Virus record (IMG/VR): IMGVR_UViG_3300018080_000430 | Coordinates: 1-31,668 of that record | Length of the DNA stretch: 31,668 nt | Strand: one strand, 5' to 3' | Origin: a virus | Shown here: positions 16,944 to 31,389 of the stretch, piece by piece | How the letters are laid out: the number at the start of each line of letters is the position of its first letter | Numbering within the stretch: the stretch's first letter is position 1 | The notes under the pieces: model-generated | What the model was told of the DNA's origin: nothing | The model's input: only the letters and a program-made list of their open reading frames with translations | Database searches by the model: none | Program-made: the position numbers and the translations under genes

Positions 16944-18071
16944 ATGGCGTCTGCAAGAGTAGGTATAGGCAAAAAGATATTGGGCGCTGCTAAAAAGGCT
17001 CTGATAGGTGACAGCCCGAAGTTTCTGTTTGTCGGACAGAAGGCGTATGGTCGAGCACTTGGCGCAACCAAGGCAGAGGCATTATCTAAGATACCCGGCC
17101 TCAAATATGTTCTTGGCGCTGCACACTGGCAGGATATCAAGGCCCTTAACCCTAAGTCATCCCTCAAGGATTATGCCAAGGCGATGTCGAAGATTAGGGG
17201 CGGCTCTATGTATATACATAACTCACAGACGATACCCGACAAGAAGCTTTTCCGCATAAAAGAGCTCGCAAAGAAATTTAATGTCAAGGCCATCAATGCG
17301 GATCCAGATGTTGCTGAGTACCTTAGTAGAGACAAATTGAGAATGGGCAAAATGCTCGGTTCTATGGGCGCTGGCGGAGACAAGGATTTGCCAGCTACAG
17401 CAAGAGGCATGAAGCGCTTCTTGAACAACCCAAAGAACCAGGATAAGTTCATAAAGAGCAAGTGGGGGGCAGAGGGCAGCGGAATTATGGGCAAGGTGAA
17501 AGACCTGAAGCCCAAAGAGAGGGAGTGGCTCCTAAGCGACATCGGAATGAGAGAGGGCCATTTGGTTCAGAATCCTGTAAGCGTCAAGAAAACGTTAACT
17601 GGTGGGCTCAGAGAGTTCAGGGTCCATGCGAGAGACAGGAAGGTTGTGGATATTGGCGGTAGGCACAATCTTGCAATACCATCTAAGAAAGAAAAATCCG
17701 CCATAAAGGATGTGGTCGAGAAGTATCACAAAAAGCTTGAGAGGGGTGGTCGTGGAGCAGAGATGAAAGAAAACCCCAAGCTAATAGCCTATGACATAGC
17801 GTTTAATAAGTCCAACAAGCCTGTGATACATGAATATCAGCCCGGGTCTGGCCTTCATGCTCATGCTCTCTCTGGTGCGCTTCGAAAGCTAGTAAAGCAT
17901 GAAACAGGCCAAGACATGCTTGTAAGGCGCGTGGGCAAGAGATTGGCAGTGGGAGGAGGTGTTGCAGGAACTGCTGTTGCTGGCAAGAAGCTATATGATA
18001 AAAAAAAGCGGCCACTGAGTAGCCGCTTAAAGATGAAGGCACAGCAGCCTGTCAAAAAGAGCATCGTCTAG
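16944..18071 (+). CDS. ATP-grasp-fold-like protein, 375 aa
   Basis: The second half carries the order of ATP-grasp motifs: DKFIKSKWGAEGSGI (167-181, Lys and Gly loop contacting ATP), HLVQNPVS (206-213), LREFRVHARDRKVVDIGGRH (222-241, the 'EYRVHV..GKVV' strand pair), and IAYDIAFNKSNKPVIHEYQPGSG (281-303, the 'D+A.d....+IE.N..+G' metal-binding strand). Family enzymes join a carboxyl-phosphate to an amine or thiol (peptide-bond-type ligation). The first 130 residues fit an N-terminal ligase subdomain. A C-terminal glycine-zipper helix (RLAVGGGVAGTAVAGKKLY) and Lys/Arg tail are shared with the tagged small proteins. GGAGA ribosome site. The 3' end overlaps the antisense C39-like gene by 45 nt. 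Its substrate is unknown. Confidence 0.58.
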   Translation: MASARVGIGKKILGAAKKALIGDSPKFLFVGQKAYGRALGATKAEALSKIPGLKYVLGAAHWQDIKALNPKSSLKDYAKAMSKIRGGSMYIHNSQTIPDKKLFRIKELAKKFNVKAINADPDVAEYLSRDKLRMGKMLGSMGAGGDKDLPATARGMKRFLNNPKNQDKFIKSKWGAEGSGIMGKVKDLKPKEREWLLSDIGMREGHLVQNPVSVKKTLTGGLREFRVHARDRKVVDIGGRHNLAIPSKKEKSAIKDVVEKYHKKLERGGRGAEMKENPKLIAYDIAFNKSNKPVIHEYQPGSGLHAHALSGALRKLVKHETGQDMLVRRVGKRLAVGGGVAGTAVAGKKLYDKKKRPLSSRLKMKAQQPVKKSIV

Positions 18072-18524
18072 CTCTTCTTTGTGTAGGCATGTCCGTGCCC
18101 TTATTGATGGGTCGGCAAGCTCAATGAATTTGCCACTGTACTGGGAGATTACCGAATAGTGTCCACCACTGAATCCAGGCACATCAAACCGGATGCAGAT
18201 TGGAGGACACCCTTTGTCGATTTCCTTTTTGATGTTTTTGAGGGTTGTCTTTTTCCATTTTGTAGTGAAGCCATAGTCTTCGAATAGATCTTCGATGCTC
18301 TCTGCATAGGAGCCCTCTAGGTCTTCGACGACTTCTTCACATATGTTTTGGATATTGGCATTGATGCCGTGTGACTTTAATATGGTTAACGCAGCCACCG
18401 CACCACAACTACAGAAATCTGTTTGTATGTATCGAGTGAGTCCTCCTGATGTCTTGCCGAATGGGAATGCGGCGGGGATTCGAAGCGTATCTCGAAATTT
18501 GTTCCATGTTTTTCTTAGGTTCAT
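18027..18524 (-). CDS. C39-like/papain-fold cysteine peptidase, 165 aa
   Basis: The sequence fits the C39-like fold. It has a Gln and catalytic Cys (YIQTDFCSCGAVAALTIL; Gln 34, Cys 40), a helical middle (ICEEVVEDLEGSYAES), then the His strand GGHYSVISQY (His about 122) and an Asp in IELADPS (about 138). Such domains hydrolyse peptide bonds; in bacteriocin transporters they cut after a Gly-Gly leader, and in phages they also occur alone. ATG 18524 has AAAGGAGAAG. It is the only minus-strand gene within the virion operon and has its own extended -10 promoter, so timing probably differs from the operon. It overlaps the ATP-grasp-like gene tail to tail. Confidence 0.65.
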   Translation of the reverse strand: MNLRKTWNKFRDTLRIPAAFPFGKTSGGLTRYIQTDFCSCGAVAALTILKSHGINANIQNICEEVVEDLEGSYAESIEDLFEDYGFTTKWKKTTLKNIKKEIDKGCPPICIRFDVPGFSGGHYSVISQYSGKFIELADPSIRARTCLHKEELDDALFDRLLCLHL

Positions 18525-25502: not shown

Positions 25503-26072
25503 TTAGTGCTTGTGGAGTATCACATCCTTGTTCTCATGCCAGCAGCGATATCCGCATTCAGGGCATCCATCACCACAATCGATTATCTCTTTGCGGCGTG
25601 GTGCCTTGAAAGTATTAATAGCAGCGAACTTTAGGCCCATTGCAGGCTTCTGTTGGCTGTCGTCCAGGCTTTCCCTTATCTTGACATTTGGGAGCTTCGA
25701 TAATGTCTTGATAGGTCCTTCCAGGTCCCTTCTTTTCGTGAAGGCTAGGAAGAGCGTGTCTGGGCATCTAAGGGCTATGTCGATCCATTTCTGTACGTAT
25801 TCTTCACTGTAGAAATCTCCACTTGCGTGGATTCTGAAGTAACTGTACTTTCCCTTGATGGCCTTGACCGCCTTGTCCACAAATCCTTTCTTCTTGGACT
25901 CTTTCAGCCTGAATGTCGTCCCCTTCTTCACATTCGGAAATACATGCTTGCCTCGCATGGCATAGCACCACTTTGCACACCATTCGGTGGGGGTGCATGT
26001 TTTCATCGGTGGAAGATTGAAGACGCCTACCTCTTTACCCAATTTTGTGTTGCCTTGAACCACGATATCCAT
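25503..26072 (-). CDS. GP88-family-like Fe-S/radical-SAM-like protein, 189 aa
   Basis: The sequence closely follows the phage GP88 family: QGNTKLGKEVGVFNLPPMKT, then a Cys cluster C-x5-C-x3-C (TCTPTEWCAKWCYAM, residues 25-39), YSYFRIHASGDFYSEEYVQKW, DTLFLAFTKRRDLEG and a terminal Cys-rich block (DCGDGCPECGYRCW). GP88-type proteins are thought to bind an iron-sulfur cluster; their reaction is unknown to me. I chose ATG 26072. The frame continues to 26162 and would add a hydrophobic stretch (LISLIPLIPLWILLAMV) encoded by a 9-bp repeat, which I regard as doubtful. Confidence 0.68.
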   Translation of the reverse strand: MDIVVQGNTKLGKEVGVFNLPPMKTCTPTEWCAKWCYAMRGKHVFPNVKKGTTFRLKESKKKGFVDKAVKAIKGKYSYFRIHASGDFYSEEYVQKWIDIALRCPDTLFLAFTKRRDLEGPIKTLSKLPNVKIRESLDDSQQKPAMGLKFAAINTFKAPRRKEIIDCGDGCPECGYRCWHENKDVILHKH

Positions 26073-26120
26073 GATTGATGTTCCCTTGATAAGAACCATT
26101 GCGAGTAGAATCCACAGTGG

Positions 26121-26151
26121 TATCAAAGGTATCAAAGATATCAAATGTATC
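26121..26151. repeat. Iteron-like 9-bp tandem repeat
   Basis: TATCAAAGG, TATCAAAGA and TATCAAATG follow one another with a 9-nt period, plus a partial fourth TATC. They lie just upstream of the favoured start of the GP88-like gene and 26 nt from the GTGTCAATTGTCAC element. They could be iterons for a DNA-binding protein, or a coding microsatellite if the longer reading frame is used. Confidence 0.55.
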
Positions 26152-26177
26152 TGACGCTTCATATACGGATTATCGGT

Positions 26178-26801: not shown

Positions 26802-27545
26802 TTATTGCCAATCGATCAACCGAATAACCTCCTCTCTTGTTATCCGGTAGTGCCCAGAAGGAGTCTTTTGGGCCATGATTTCCCGCTTCTTTATCTTGTT
26901 TATAACTGTCGAGTAGTGAATTCCCAGGGCGCTGGCCACCGCCCTGGTAGAATAGTACCTTCTCGTTATCTCAGATATGGGGGTATGCGGATGCAGCCCC
27001 TGAACAGATCTATCGCTCACAGTCATGATACTACCGGGTCTTATGGGTGTCTTATGGGCCTTGCGGGAGTCAGGGTCGGCCATCTCAGTAGACCTCTTGA
27101 GCCGCATTGTCTTGAAATCCACGTTGTATTTCGGAAGAAGCCTATCTATCCATTCTCGCTCCCTGTCCAACAGGTCTTTCTTTTCGCATGGCATGGCAAA
27201 CACCTGGTCGAACTTCTTATTGCCCACATGCTGCAATATCCTGGCTGGACCATACTCGGACTTGCCGACATAGACAACGGATCCCTCGTGGATCAGGAAG
27301 TATATTCCGCATCTGACAGAAGGCAGGCAAAGGGGATATAGCGCTTCCTTGACCTCCTCCAGGCCCGGAGGAGCCTGGATGTCCTCGATCTCAAGGTATG
27401 CCCTCAGGACAGACACATGGCCCTCCAGAGTCTCTATCCTCTCGTATTGCCGTTTCTCTTTGTCGCGACACTCGCTTAATATGGCTTGCGCTTTACGCAG
27501 AGCCTCTCGGGCCATTACTCCCGAGCTCACCTTATGCTGCTCCAT
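26802..27545 (-). CDS. GIY-YIG nuclease with C-terminal HTH, 247 aa
   Basis: A central GIY-YIG nuclease domain: CGIYFLIHEGSVVYVGKS (GIY at about 80-82, YVG at 92-94), PARILQHVGNKKFD (Arg about 102), and DREREWIDRLLPKYNV, providing the metal-binding Glu at about 131. The N-terminus (1-55) is a coiled-coil-like helix (SECRDKEKRQYERIETL). The C-terminus is a MerR/excisionase-type helix-turn-helix (YYSTRAVASALGIHYSTVIN then KIKKREIMAQK and TPSGHYRITREEVIRLI). This suggests a site-targeted endonuclease, like a free-standing homing or defence nuclease. ATG 27545 fits the AGGAGG upstream; GTG 27554 is possible. It is in one unit with the small genes downstream. Confidence 0.8.
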   Translation of the reverse strand: MEQHKVSSGVMAREALRKAQAILSECRDKEKRQYERIETLEGHVSVLRAYLEIEDIQAPPGLEEVKEALYPLCLPSVRCGIYFLIHEGSVVYVGKSEYGPARILQHVGNKKFDQVFAMPCEKKDLLDREREWIDRLLPKYNVDFKTMRLKRSTEMADPDSRKAHKTPIRPGSIMTVSDRSVQGLHPHTPISEITRRYYSTRAVASALGIHYSTVINKIKKREIMAQKTPSGHYRITREEVIRLIDWQ

Positions 27546-27550
27546 TGATA

Positions 27551-27904
27551 TCACTCCTCCTTTACTAATGCGTATCCGGTTGAATGCTGATGCATCCTCT
27601 GAATACTTATGCGTCCTTTGCGAGGCTTATCATAATAGGCGAAGCCGCCCTTGACTTCCGTAATAGTGATTTTTCTTGCTGAACATCGCTTGTCCAAGTC
27701 CCTCCATACCTGGCCTGCCTCTACGAGTATCCCTTCTTTGGTCATGTTTTCTGGTGCGCCCACAAATGGCACTCCTCCAATCTCCAGATAGATATTCGGA
27801 TCAAACGCCACGGAGAGACTAAGGCCGTCATCGTCCACGCCTACCATATCGTCTTCGTTCAGTGTCTCTAGCCATTTTTTGATCTCACTTATTGGCATTG
27901 CCAT
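27551..27904 (-). CDS. Hypothetical phage protein, 117 aa
   Basis: Two apparent small domains. Residues 1-50 contain an acidic turn (LNEDDMVGVDDDGLSLSV then YLEIGGVPFVG). Residues 61-112 (EAGQVWRDLDKRCSARKITI, then GFAYYDKPRKGRISIQRM and TGYALV) match a pattern I know from phage proteins with 'GQVW.D.DPR...R.I.I' and 'I...RF....GY.LV', of unknown function. The ATG at 27904 has AGGAGGAAT five bases upstream. It overlaps the frame of the GIY-YIG gene at its stop (GTGA). Confidence 0.62.
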   Translation of the reverse strand: MAMPISEIKKWLETLNEDDMVGVDDDGLSLSVAFDPNIYLEIGGVPFVGAPENMTKEGILVEAGQVWRDLDKRCSARKITITEVKGGFAYYDKPRKGRISIQRMHQHSTGYALVKEE

Positions 27905-28018: not shown

Positions 28019-30028
28019 CTAACTAATGCTAGTCAGGAGGCTCGTCAGGTAGCTTCGTCCATTGTCTATAGGAACATGCATGGCATGAAATGTTCCGTCA
28101 GATTCATTAACGATTTGAAGGATATATCCATGTGTCCATCCAGATGGATCGTTGTGTCTCCATCTTGGCTGTAGCTGGCAAATGCAGCCAGGACACCACG
28201 CGGCTACGAGTCCAACACCAACCATCCTTGTTGTGCTATAATCTGCGCGATGGGTATTACCGGCCACAAAAACCTTGCCATTCCTGCGAACAATCAGTGT
28301 CTGATTATCTACAGAGCAGCACCATACATCTCCAGAATATGGAACGACAGAAATTTTTTCTGACGATACATGAGTAAAGCCACGCTCACAGATTGTCAGG
28401 ACGTTGTATCTCGATCCATTCCTATACCTAACAATATGAGATGATCTTTTCCCATGCTTGGCACAAAGCTCTTGTAGTATGTCTATATCGCTATCGATGT
28501 TTGATGCGAATTGCACTGAATTTTCTGATGTAGTGCTTATGCTGCCATCAGCCATGATAAGCGTGTCTAGGAGAATCTCAAATTGCCTGGCCGAGAGCTC
28601 GGTCATCCATTTCTGTAGCTTCTTTTCTGGACATCTTGTGTGGTATTCCTTTACGGCATCGCTTTTACTTGAAAGACCATATCTGTATGCGTCATAATTT
28701 CTGTGTTGGCCATGTTCATCAGACCCTGCATCGTATCTCTTGATTTTCGAGAAATCTATATTCATTCTTGGCAATAGGTCATCAAGTTCTTCTACTCCGC
28801 CACCAGGGATATCGGATTGAGCTATGCGTATGTGATCATTCCCCTCCTCTATACATCCCTCAGACACAATCCATCCGATGAGGCGAATCATGTCATCGCT
28901 TATGTCATAATCGGACTGGTTGTCCGACATTGCCGCAAGTGGTATGGCTGCCTTGGCTAGGTCAGAAACATCTTTTGCCTTGACCCTTCTTAGCTTGCGT
29001 TTACCGGTGGTAGCCTCCCCTAGTCGTCTTACATTGGGGCTCATTAGTACCATCGCGTGGTCTTCTGTGACCAGGGCATCGATAGAGCGACTCTTGATTT
29101 TTACCATTTCTGTGTAATGGTCATGTGTCCAGACGTCTTTTATGGGCTGGTGCTCGAACTGCCCCGTTTCCATATTCACTGTTGCGGCAAGATCGCCTAC
29201 GGAAAGGTCAGTATATTTCTTCCATCCATCACGCGTAAGGAGTTCGGTGTCATCAGAGAAGCAGTGTCCATAGAACACACACGCAGCGAACTTATCAAGC
29301 GTTTTGCTTGCAGCATGCTTTGCGCAGCTGAAGCCATGAGTGAAGAAGCTCTTTCCGAGCTTGAGCGTTCCCCGCTCAAGGAGTCCGCCATGACATTCAC
29401 CTATTCTGTAATACTTGATGCCCCGCTTTTCAAGGTTCAATACTTTCTCTGGCGATACTGCCCTAAGAAGGAATTCGGCGTTTCTCTTGTTGCCCTCACA
29501 GGCATCTACGCACCATCTTTCTACTCTTTGTTCGTGATTGCCCTCCATATAGTGTATCTCGGCATGTGGTGCGCGTTTTTGTATGTGATCTAGTAGGTCG
29601 TTTGTGGCCGCTACGTCGTCCTCGTAGACAGATTCATCGATTTGTGATACGTAGCCAAGGGTGTGTTTTTGTGCAAGCCATCCTCCACATTCCAGGCCAT
29701 CTCCTAGATGCACAACCTCTCTTACATCAATAGCCTCTATGTCGTTTAGGAGTGCAGATACAGCGCCCTTTTCGGCATGTGAGCCGTGTGTGTCTCCGAG
29801 TATGACTCTGGCGAAGGTCTTTGGTTTCTTGCGCTTCCTGGTTTTCTCCGGTATGGCAAGACCACGGGATTTTCGCGCCTGTTCCAGCTGTTCTGTTGTG
29901 GCCTCTAATTGAGCCTTCAGGACCTTGTTTTCCTTGATGGTCCTTTCCAGCTTGTTTCCACCAGCTATGGTCTTTCTAAAGGCCTCTAATTGTTCTTTGT
30001 CATTTGCGGGTTTTCCCCTCTTTGCCAT
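28019..30028 (-). CDS. Calcineurin-like metallophosphoesterase interrupted by an intein, 669 aa precursor
   Basis: After splicing, this would be a 333-residue protein of the metallophosphoesterase family. Residues 76-82 (ILGDTHG), 106-115 (VHLGDGLECG), 160-166 (YMEGNHE) and 230-233 (THGF) supply the metal-binding Asp, His and Asn residues. GH at 254-255, joined to TH at 592-593, rebuilds the GHTH motif of the active site. An N-terminal basic, helical region (about 1-72) precedes the domain. Family members hydrolyse phosphoester bonds, often as DNA-processing or nucleotide phosphatases; the substrate is not known. The intein lies at residues 256-591. A terminator follows the stop, and an HTH-like gene is upstream. 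ATG 30028 has GGAGATA. Confidence 0.86.
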   Translation of the reverse strand: MAKRGKPANDKEQLEAFRKTIAGGNKLERTIKENKVLKAQLEATTEQLEQARKSRGLAIPEKTRKRKKPKTFARVILGDTHGSHAEKGAVSALLNDIEAIDVREVVHLGDGLECGGWLAQKHTLGYVSQIDESVYEDDVAATNDLLDHIQKRAPHAEIHYMEGNHEQRVERWCVDACEGNKRNAEFLLRAVSPEKVLNLEKRGIKYYRIGECHGGLLERGTLKLGKSFFTHGFSCAKHAASKTLDKFAACVFYGHCFSDDTELLTRDGWKKYTDLSVGDLAATVNMETGQFEHQPIKDVWTHDHYTEMVKIKSRSIDALVTEDHAMVLMSPNVRRLGEATTGKRKLRRVKAKDVSDLAKAAIPLAAMSDNQSDYDISDDMIRLIGWIVSEGCIEEGNDHIRIAQSDIPGGGVEELDDLLPRMNIDFSKIKRYDAGSDEHGQHRNYDAYRYGLSSKSDAVKEYHTRCPEKKLQKWMTELSARQFEILLDTLIMADGSISTTSENSVQFASNIDSDIDILQELCAKHGKRSSHIVRYRNGSRYNVLTICERGFTHVSSEKISVVPYSGDVWCCSVDNQTLIVRRNGKVFVAGNTHRADYSTTRMVGVGLVAAWCPGCICQLQPRWRHNDPSGWTHGYILQIVNESDGTFHAMHVPIDNGRSYLTSLLTSIS
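28256..29263 (-). mobile_element. Intein with LAGLIDADG endonuclease, 336 aa, in the GHTH motif
   Basis: It starts at Cys 256 (CFSDDTELLTRDGWKKYTDL, block A) and ends at Asn 591 (GKVFVAGN) before Thr 592. Block B is VTEDHAMVL (320-328, with Thr and His), and block F is GDVWCCSVDNQTLIV (566-580). Two LAGLIDADG-type motifs are visible: MIRLIGWIVSEGCIEEG (380-396) and LLDTLIMADGSIS (486-498), so the homing endonuclease is likely intact. The penultimate intein residue is Gly, not the usual His; such 'AGN' ends occur in natural inteins, but splicing is not proven here. Excision would join H255 to T592 exactly inside GHTH. Confidence 0.92.
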
Positions 30029-30039
30029 TATCTTATCTC

Positions 30040-30537
30040 CTATTCATTAGCTATTTCTCGTAACTCCTCTACGTGATCTGGGTGTCCCCATATGTTGTAT
30101 TTTCTTTTATCCTCATCAACTACATCTGGGACTATCAGATGTTCAAAGTCTCTTCTTATGCTTGACCAATCGCAAGAATTTATGCCCAGTATTTCTCTGA
30201 ATTCATTATCTGGTATCCATATGCGCTCTTTCAGTACGGTATCTATGCCCTCTATTACGCGTTCAAGAAGCTTTTTCGTTCTGCGTGCCTGGACTTCAGA
30301 TCTAGAGAACATTTGACGAAATCCCTCCACACCGGCAGGCGTGTCTTTCTTTTTGGGTGGTGTCTTTGTGGCGGGAACATTCGTCTTGATCTTGTTTGCA
30401 TAATTCGTCTCAACACTTATCAAAACCCTTCTTACAGATGCTTTGTTGCGCTTTAGTTCTTTTGCACAGGCGTTGACGAGTGCTGGTCGCGAATCATACT
30501 TGTCGATGTTTTTTGTGAGATACTCCCTGATTGTCAT
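30040..30537 (-). CDS. HTH-like DNA-binding protein, 165 aa
   Basis: The N-terminus MTIREYLTKNIDKYDSRPAL continues into NACAKELKRNKASVRRVLIS (about 22-41), where the tri-helical pattern with basic residues is consistent with a helix-turn-helix. A Lys/Pro-rich linker (PATKTPPKKKDTPAG) follows, then a C-terminal domain with YNIWGHPDHVEEL. It may be a regulator or the small terminase-type DNA-recognition protein; I cannot choose. ATG 30537 has a GGAGGAC site and overlaps the upstream SPFH gene's stop by one codon. It precedes the metallophosphoesterase gene, with which it shares an operon. Confidence 0.55.
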   Translation of the reverse strand: MTIREYLTKNIDKYDSRPALVNACAKELKRNKASVRRVLISVETNYANKIKTNVPATKTPPKKKDTPAGVEGFRQMFSRSEVQARRTKKLLERVIEGIDTVLKERIWIPDNEFREILGINSCDWSSIRRDFEHLIVPDVVDEDKRKYNIWGHPDHVEELREIANE

Positions 30538-31073
30538 TCTGCGTCCTCCATTACTGGCGCGTTGGTTATCAACCTCACTACTCTGCAAGGAACCAGCTCA
30601 TTAATAAAGACGTTGATTATCTCAACGCCGCTATTGTATAGCCTCTTCCTGAGCAACTTGGTAAGATCATCAACCAACTCGCCACCCTTCATAATTGATG
30701 GCATCTCTCTCTCCCTCATGACCTCTGCAGCAACGCTCATTGCGAGAGGAGGTATGTAGGTATCGAGATCATCATAGTCACAGAAAGCCTTTAGCGGATC
30801 CGTAACCCTATATTGAACAACGACGCCTATGGAGATCGATTTTCCATCTTTTGTCAGGACGGCTTGTGTTCTGCAATCTATGCATTGCTTACATGTCTTC
30901 CTGACATCCACTTCGCATAACATTGGAAAATATATGAAAACTGAGGATGACTTTATCGAAGACGGCTTACCAAACCAGTAGGCCACGCCAGCCTCAGTGG
31001 AATCTACAATCATGATGGAGGGAAGGGATGAGAGGATTTTGTCAAATATCTTGTCAAGCCACTCAAACGCCAT
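30534..31073 (-). CDS. SPFH/band-7 (stomatin/prohibitin-like) domain protein, 179 aa
   Basis: The band-7 pattern is visible: IMIVDSTEAGVAYWFGKP (about 20-37), SVFIYFPMLCEVDVRKT (about 45-61), DCRTQAVLTKDGKSISIGVV (about 66-85), VQYRVTDPLKAF, and then AAEVMREREMPSI, the 'D+..+...DG....+...V.Y.+.D...' signature with the helical end. SPFH proteins form ring- or cage-like scaffolds at membranes. No transmembrane helix is obvious, only an amphipathic N-terminus (MAFEWLDKIFDKIL). Start at ATG 31073 with AGGAGGGGA; the frame is open to 31142. It overlaps the downstream gene by 4 nt. Confidence 0.68.
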   Translation of the reverse strand: MAFEWLDKIFDKILSSLPSIMIVDSTEAGVAYWFGKPSSIKSSSVFIYFPMLCEVDVRKTCKQCIDCRTQAVLTKDGKSISIGVVVQYRVTDPLKAFCDYDDLDTYIPPLAMSVAAEVMREREMPSIMKGGELVDDLTKLLRKRLYNSGVEIINVFINELVPCRVVRLITNAPVMEDAE

Positions 31074-31389
31074 GCTCCCCTCCTGGTAGACATGTACGGA
31101 TATGCTGAGTGTTATTATAGCCATATTTCCTGCGATATCCATTGTGTATTACCACATCCGTTCATGTCCGAGCTAAAAAAATAGAACTCGCAGGTGCGTG
31201 CATTTATCATATACTATTGGTATATATGTCTTTACGTATATATACGACGTAATTCGGACCTGTTCGATTTTTGTTGGTATTGTGGGTTAGGATGGTATTG
31301 AGTCGGTAACCTTGGGTTCTGTAGGGTCCACCTGTCCCATACAGCGCGGCCTCCGTTTGACTGAAGGCCGCGCTGTCGTTAAGGTGTTC
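31074..31389. other. 316-nt intergenic gap
   Basis: No convincing gene is visible. It contains a candidate -10 TATAAT on the minus strand (31114-31119) with a weak TGGATA -35 for the SPFH gene. It also holds an AT-rich segment with the palindrome CGTATATATACG near 31238-31249, and the strong hairpin at 31341-31376. It probably holds the promoter for the 31073-28019 minus-strand unit. Confidence 0.5.
31341..31376 (-). terminator. Strong hairpin, probable terminator for the gene at 31390
   Basis: ACAGCGCGGCCT (31341-31352) pairs perfectly with AGGCCGCGCTGT (31365-31376), 12 base pairs around a 12-nt loop. On the minus strand it lies just after the stop at 31390 but lacks a T-run, so it may be a factor-dependent or processing hairpin. 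Confidence 0.6.

Follow-up and report, generated by a model that had tools for sequence, protein, structure and literature searches.

A LAGLIDADG intein inside the GHTH motif of a phage metallophosphoesterase, at an insertion point that recurs across phosphoesterase families

Introduction

What interrupts the GHTH motif of a phage metallophosphoesterase gene, could splicing rebuild the motif, and is this point in the active site used by inteins in other enzymes? The locus that raises these questions lies in a 31,668-base virus record from IMG/VR, a single contig that we refer to in full as the window. Because it has genes for phrog_2522 (major head protein) and phrog_18299 (head maturation protease), we judge it from its content to be a fragment of a tailed-phage genome. 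A sequence-only reading had proposed that an intein at 28256-29263 splits the motif, and had set comparison with intein-free homologues beforehand as the test that could refute it. That reading did not see what we describe further here, the recurrence of the insertion site across phosphoesterase families.

Results

The ORF at 28019-30028 on the minus strand encodes a 669-aa precursor, and its 669 codons contain neither stop nor frameshift. A 255-aa N-extein ending VFYGH is followed by a 336-aa intein (C256-N591) and a 78-aa C-extein starting THRAD, and the predicted spliced product is 255 + 78 = 333 aa. The proposed interval is exact, and the placement of GH at residues 254-255 and TH at 592-593, together with the proposed lengths of 333 aa for the spliced product and 336 aa for the intein, agrees with our computation from the ORF. 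The features, all on the minus strand, are as follows, with their basis in parentheses.

29264 to 30028, minus: N-extein, 255 aa, metallophosphoesterase, ending in VFYGH (phrog_221 match, alignment to L002 and L003, motifs)
29264 to 29269, minus: GH codons GGACAC, the upstream half of the split motif (junction DNA)
28256 to 29263, minus: intein, 336 aa (C256-N591), HINT splicing domain plus LAGLIDADG endonuclease domain (sequence, relatives, predicted fold)
29057 to 29068, minus: block B, TEDH, precursor residues 321-324 (sequence)
28856 to 28879, minus: LAGLIDADG motif 1, IGWIVSEG, residues 384-391 (sequence, alignment)
28544 to 28558, minus: LAGLIDADG motif 2, IMADG, residues 491-495 (sequence, alignment)
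28316 to 28327, minus: block F, VWCC, residues 568-571, with a Cys conserved in related phage inteins (sequence, alignment)
28250 to 28255, minus: TH codons ACCCAT, the downstream half of the split motif, with T as the +1 nucleophile (junction DNA)
28019 to 28255, minus: C-extein, 78 aa plus stop, beginning THRAD (ORF translation, alignment to L002 and L003)

The host part matches the phrog_221 metallo-phosphoesterase profile (E 5.8e-13) and, under the curated cut-off, Pfam Metallophos (E 0.0014). It has the complete motif set of calcineurin-like metallophosphoesterases (DxH, GDxxx, GNHE, H(G) and GHxH), with GDTHG at residue 78, GDGLECG at 109, GNHE at 163, THG at 230 and GH at 254 in the N-extein. 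Residues D79/H81, D110, N164/H165, H231 and H255/H593, which in this family are metal ligands or active-site residues, are all retained and do not vary between the window and the homologues L002 and L003, as is expected if the enzyme is still made. A tblastn search of phage records with the N-extein gave no match.

Several neighbouring minus-strand genes on this phage fragment deserve mention in their own right. The gene at 26802-27554, some 0.5 kb downstream of the intein-bearing ORF, codes for 250 aa; its product resembles GIY-YIG nucleases weakly (E 0.0017, under the cut-off), has a C-terminal HTH_17 domain and may be either a regulator or a homing-type endonuclease that stands on its own. 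The fragment also encodes a Band_7/SPFH-domain protein (30534-31142, Pfam E 1.6e-17), a member of the 8-oxoguanine DNA glycosylase family (Ogg-HhH; 2204-2797, E 7.6e-32), a Peptidase C39 family protein (18027-18524, E 5.9e-13) and a GP88-family protein (25503-26162, Pfam E 1e-27).

Homologues with an empty site bear directly on the proposal. Two viral contigs, L002 and L003, encode proteins of 325-335 aa with 46-48% identity to the host and no insert; in the alignment, YGH and THR flank a gap that takes up precisely the 336 residues of the intein, with no residue missing or added (YGHTHR). The junction DNA reads GGTCAC^ACCCATCGA and GGTCAT^ACGCACCGA in these contigs against GGACAC^ACCCATCGC in the window, the caret marking the insertion point here and below. 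Since L002 and L003 carry GHTH without an insert, the predicted splice product restores the motif. The host of a second intein, L104, is likewise matched by homologues without an insert, L185 (61%) and L186 (58%), in which the junction reads GHTHQ, and the proposal thus withstood its own test in two host families. For the hosts of a further family, phrog_1745, an Ochrobactrum phage homologue (35% to L015) lacks the insert and reads GHFH. Given that the window and L104 inteins (39% alike) lie in two families that each have empty relatives, the simplest reading of these sequences is that an intein would have been transferred between families, or separately into both, at one codon junction. We dropped an argument for recent transfer from base composition, for the gap between the intein (45.3% GC) and the exteins (49.0/48.1%) is too small.

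The insert itself contains blocks A, B and F and two LAGLIDADG motifs, all as proposed. Block A reads CFSDDTELLT, block B supplies the TxxH motif of class 1 inteins (TEDH), and block G is VAGN^T (588-592), so that Cys256 stands at position 1 and the intein ends FVAGN, with N591 followed by T592. The penultimate His that is common but not obligatory in class 1 is absent, and Gly590 takes its place. This had been pointed out correctly as a departure; we reject it as an oddity, since Gly is the norm of the family, being penultimate in 64 of 68 complete de-duplicated relatives (the others have Q in two cases, H in one and L in one; 6 of 74 rows that do not end in N were dropped from this count). 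Cys1, the block-F Cys and the terminal Asn are common to all 18 phage and viral inteins aligned. Both LAGLIDADG motifs keep their acid (E in the first, D in the second), and among the four closest sequences aligned neither column varies. According to PMC5050341, class 3 inteins lack the position-1 nucleophile and have a WCT triplet at B12, F4 and G5; the window intein has Cys1 and an Ala at G5 (VAGN), which rules out class 3, although by our reading of the alignment a Cys does stand at F4. By its residues, then, it is a predicted class-1-like intein whose two-motif LAGLIDADG endonuclease has kept both acids.

Chance resemblance does not explain this call, as the window intein alone finds 273 matching records among 50,697 from phages at E<=1e-5; in 260 the match spans >=80% of the query, and the best E among the matches listed is 1e-23. 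Evidence from single models is weaker (TIGR01445 intein_Nterm, E 0.012; LAGLIDADG_3, E 5e-4), both being under curated cut-offs, and the intein and host profiles gave no match against PDB sequences. An AlphaFold2 model built from nine aligned precursors has a mean pLDDT of 62.8; taken in blocks of ten residues, most of the intein scores about 75-95, and the exteins score low. Searched with Foldseek against the PDB, it matched the PI-SceI mini-precursor 1ef0 first (E 4.8e-15) and the TliVMA intein 7qsu second (1.3e-14), with I-DmoI among the matches for the endonuclease part; this match to solved inteins gives the insert a predicted HINT fold. The model of the intein-free homologue L003 (mean pLDDT 49.1) was too poor for use.

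The same insertion point is occupied elsewhere. Including the window, we found nine distinct inteins at GH^xH, with junctions GH^TH, GH^SH or GH^CH, in hosts from four or more PHROG families that BLAST relates to each other barely or not at all: phrog_221 (window, L043), phrog_7339 'DNA repair exonuclease' (L017, L018, L020, L039), phrog_1745 'DNA transfer protein' (L015, L019) and phrog_547 'phosphoesterase' (L022). Two of these carry a second label (L018 is L104, with a longer host, and L019 is L112). At E<=0.01 the window host pairs with only one of the GH^xH hosts, L112, and weakly (32 aligned residues, E 5e-4); it also pairs by BLAST with the host L128 (E 9e-9), whose intein sits at GNHE.

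Most of these inteins were found with patterns that contain the GH-Cys junction, a bias in their favour. The pattern GH-Cys-xxx-DTE-x-LT hit eight stretches in viral contigs and three in genome contigs, and 7 of the 11 are phosphoesterase inteins at GH^xH (L015, L017, L018, L019, L020, L021, L022), L020 and L021 being the same 47,809-base contig present in both collections. L013/L016 and L014 were set aside because their hosts are, by eye, not phosphoesterases, and L023 is a spurious match. A second pattern, GHCF..DTE, hit 84 stretches, among which only L039 and L043 are new true inteins; nearly all are of the GGHCFPKDTEA type, which we take to be UDP-glucose dehydrogenase-like rather than inteins. 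A pattern for the C-side junction hit no stretch in viral contigs. As a check on the bias, we compared scores against the window intein: 7 of the 8 other GH^xH inteins reach 129-236 bits (the eighth, L022, reaches 73.6), and a tblastn search of all 50,697 phage records gave nothing above 109 bits among the matches listed.

One of these contigs holds a separate curiosity. L020:1054-3858 (the same as L021; QNAZ01000001.1, a Thermodesulfobacteriota MAG also present in IMG/VR) carries two inteins in a single phosphoesterase ORF, the first in motif II (GGDI^C), the other in motif V (GH^SH).

Relatedness among the inteins follows the site in part. Compared with 17 others, the window intein is closest to L018 (38.9% over 337 columns, 236 bits), then to L039, L015, L017, L019, L043 and L020 (129-157 bits), all at GH^xH; below this group come an intein at the GNHE site of a phosphoesterase (109 bits) and one in a methyltransferase (107), with the GH^xH intein L022 also low. 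With four GH^xH inteins as queries, a broader search yielded 182 relatives, of which 80 were kept. Their insertion points include GH^TH or GH^SH (L104, L105/L106, L107, L112, L114, L115), R^SHVH (L108/L109, L111), GNH^, GNHD^ and GNHE^ (L110, L121, L128) and GDY^CD (L124, L134), so phosphoesterase motifs II and III are occupied too; other relatives lie in methyltransferases and many other hosts. The phosphoesterase identity of L108, L110, L121, L124, L128, L134 and L004 comes from Pfam or PHROG matches, some of them weak, and that of L111, which has no such match, from similarity to L108. By this reading, 10 of the 11 best non-self inteins in the window's ranking of the de-duplicated set have phosphoesterase hosts.

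After removal of 18 of 92 inteins as near-copies, a 74-row tree accounts for the GH^xH label with 4 changes, where shuffled labels need 8.7 (none of 500 shuffles was as low). It groups the window with L104 (SH-aLRT 99), four of five motif-III inteins with each other (97; L004 falls outside) and the three motif-II inteins (88). In an 18-row tree, a single group of all nine GH^xH inteins is weakly rejected (AU p 0.020; 0.023 without L022). We therefore make no claim of one clade and limit ourselves to recurrence and clustering, which we read from these trees as probable clustering by site, reached through more than one arrival or else blurred by long branches. Outside the phosphoesterases, a related intein at L165:2501-3502 sits at a PD^CHYG junction, again a metal-binding motif, in a host that from this motif is presumably an RtcB RNA ligase.

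At the DNA level, all nine GH^xH sites read GGN-CAY^, then a Thr, Ser or Cys codon, then CAY, and little beyond these codons is common to the host families. The related inteins L113 and L147 lie at GDDDH^TQYL, in a host that by eye resembles phage tail proteins, and their sites (CAT^ACTCAA and CAT^ACACAA) have the same H^T core as the GHTH site. These sequences, small in count, are suggestive of a DNA target around CAY^ACNCA.

Discussion

We conclude, with a probability of roughly 0.88, that the insert is a canonical cis-splicing, class-1-like intein with a LAGLIDADG homing endonuclease, in a calcineurin-like metallophosphoesterase of a tailed phage. The conclusion draws on its anatomy, the empty-site homologues in two host families, the conserved catalytic residues, the predicted fold and the recurrence of the site, all read at the level of sequence. 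The gene would be expressed as the 669-aa precursor, in which Cys1 would attack the GH-C bond; the acyl group would then move to Thr+1 and Asn336 would cyclise, releasing the 333-aa enzyme with GHTH and the 336-aa intein. Because the two motif-V histidines would be held apart before splicing, the precursor should be without phosphoesterase activity, and we infer, as had been proposed, that enzyme activity would depend strictly on splicing. Cleavage of empty GGN-CAY^ACN-CAY sites by the endonuclease would let the intein spread by homing.

The last of these steps is where the strongest rival differs. Intein endonucleases decay, and the intein may splice while its endonuclease is no longer active, leaving a fixed passenger. 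Within the GH^xH set, L043 lacks the motif 1 acid (HIYG), and no near-identical copy of the window intein was seen in another phage among the records searched. The window intein, however, retains the acids of both motifs, E and D respectively, at positions where the four closest aligned sequences do not vary, and its nearest intein relative lies in a different phosphoesterase family. The loss of endonuclease activity is thus possible but, to our minds, the lesser prospect, and the suggestion in the sequence-only reading that the intein may still be mobile fits these data.

How inteins came to the same junction in such different enzymes is a further matter. Each GH^xH intein could have arrived independently from inteins of other genes, converging on a conserved motif rather than moving between phosphoesterase families. 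The weak rejection of one clade, with nine rows or eight, agrees with this, as does the placement of some non-phosphoesterase inteins among GH^xH rows in the 74-row tree; the low number of label changes and the grouping of the window with L104, despite hosts in different PHROG families, do not, and we regard wholly independent arrival as unlikely. A bolder idea is 'motif homing', which we would not rate at even odds: the endonuclease would read little beyond the GH^xH codons and so jump between phosphoesterase families without detectable similarity, and sister lineages would have taken up motifs II and III within this superfamily. The data suggest that this intein family tracks the active-site motif across different enzymes.

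A more elaborate function is conceivable for splicing at this position. The split metal-binding motif might serve as a switch, with splicing conditional on metal, redox state or time of infection. The active-site position and the two adjacent block-F cysteines would suit such a role, and PMC5050341 argues that the penultimate residue tunes the rate of splicing in phage. The penultimate Gly of the window intein is nevertheless the norm of its family. Many inteins occupy conserved motifs with no known regulation, and we think a switch distinctly improbable. That the insert has ceased to splice and the gene is dead is very hard to credit, as the splice-site and host motif residues are all intact in an uninterrupted reading frame.

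That inteins lie in conserved motifs is a known rule, and the finding itself is ordinary in kind: a new insertion site within a known kind of intein. What it adds is that one and the same insertion point in the active site is used repeatedly in distant phosphoesterase families. With related inteins at a single codon junction of very different hosts, the reach of a homing endonuclease between gene families could be tested directly, and so could the question whether conserved active-site DNA is the target. The family with penultimate Gly and block-F Cys is, in addition, a source of natural inteins that would splice within a histidine-rich metal site.

In open-access full text we recognised no intein inside a GHxH motif, and the only phosphoesterase intein found there was that of the mycobacteriophage RDF in PMC5050341; the available portions of PMC9957025, PMC6892783 and PMC7824862 contained none. 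Among inteins of known structure, the PI-SceI/VMA type (1ef0, 7qsu) shares with the predicted model of the window intein a HINT splicing domain into which a LAGLIDADG endonuclease domain is inserted, but has a different host protein and 10-12% identity over aligned columns. The nearest sequence, L018 or L104 (IMGVR_UViG_3300002446_000065), for whose GH^TH intein we found no publication in the open-access literature, has the same insertion point, +1 Thr and GN end, whereas its host belongs to phrog_7339 rather than phrog_221 and has no BLAST similarity to the window exteins at E<=0.01. The closest described case is the mycobacteriophage RDF intein, known from Bethlehem gp51 (PMC5050341) and compared here through the sequence of phage Nepal gp53 (L007), in which the intein follows EGNHD. 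Like the window intein, it is of class-1 type, with Cys1, a block-F Cys, a penultimate Gly and a two-motif endonuclease region, and it adjoins a conserved motif in a calcineurin-like metallophosphoesterase domain; unlike it, it lies after GNHD (motif III), has Ser at +1, is 26% identical in alignment and has the RDF as host. In Bethlehem, splicing with the penultimate Gly is complete and becomes slower when this residue is changed to His (same source). The RDF intein is thus a precedent both for the penultimate Gly and for a site at a phosphoesterase motif, and it is in the GHTH site that the window intein differs.
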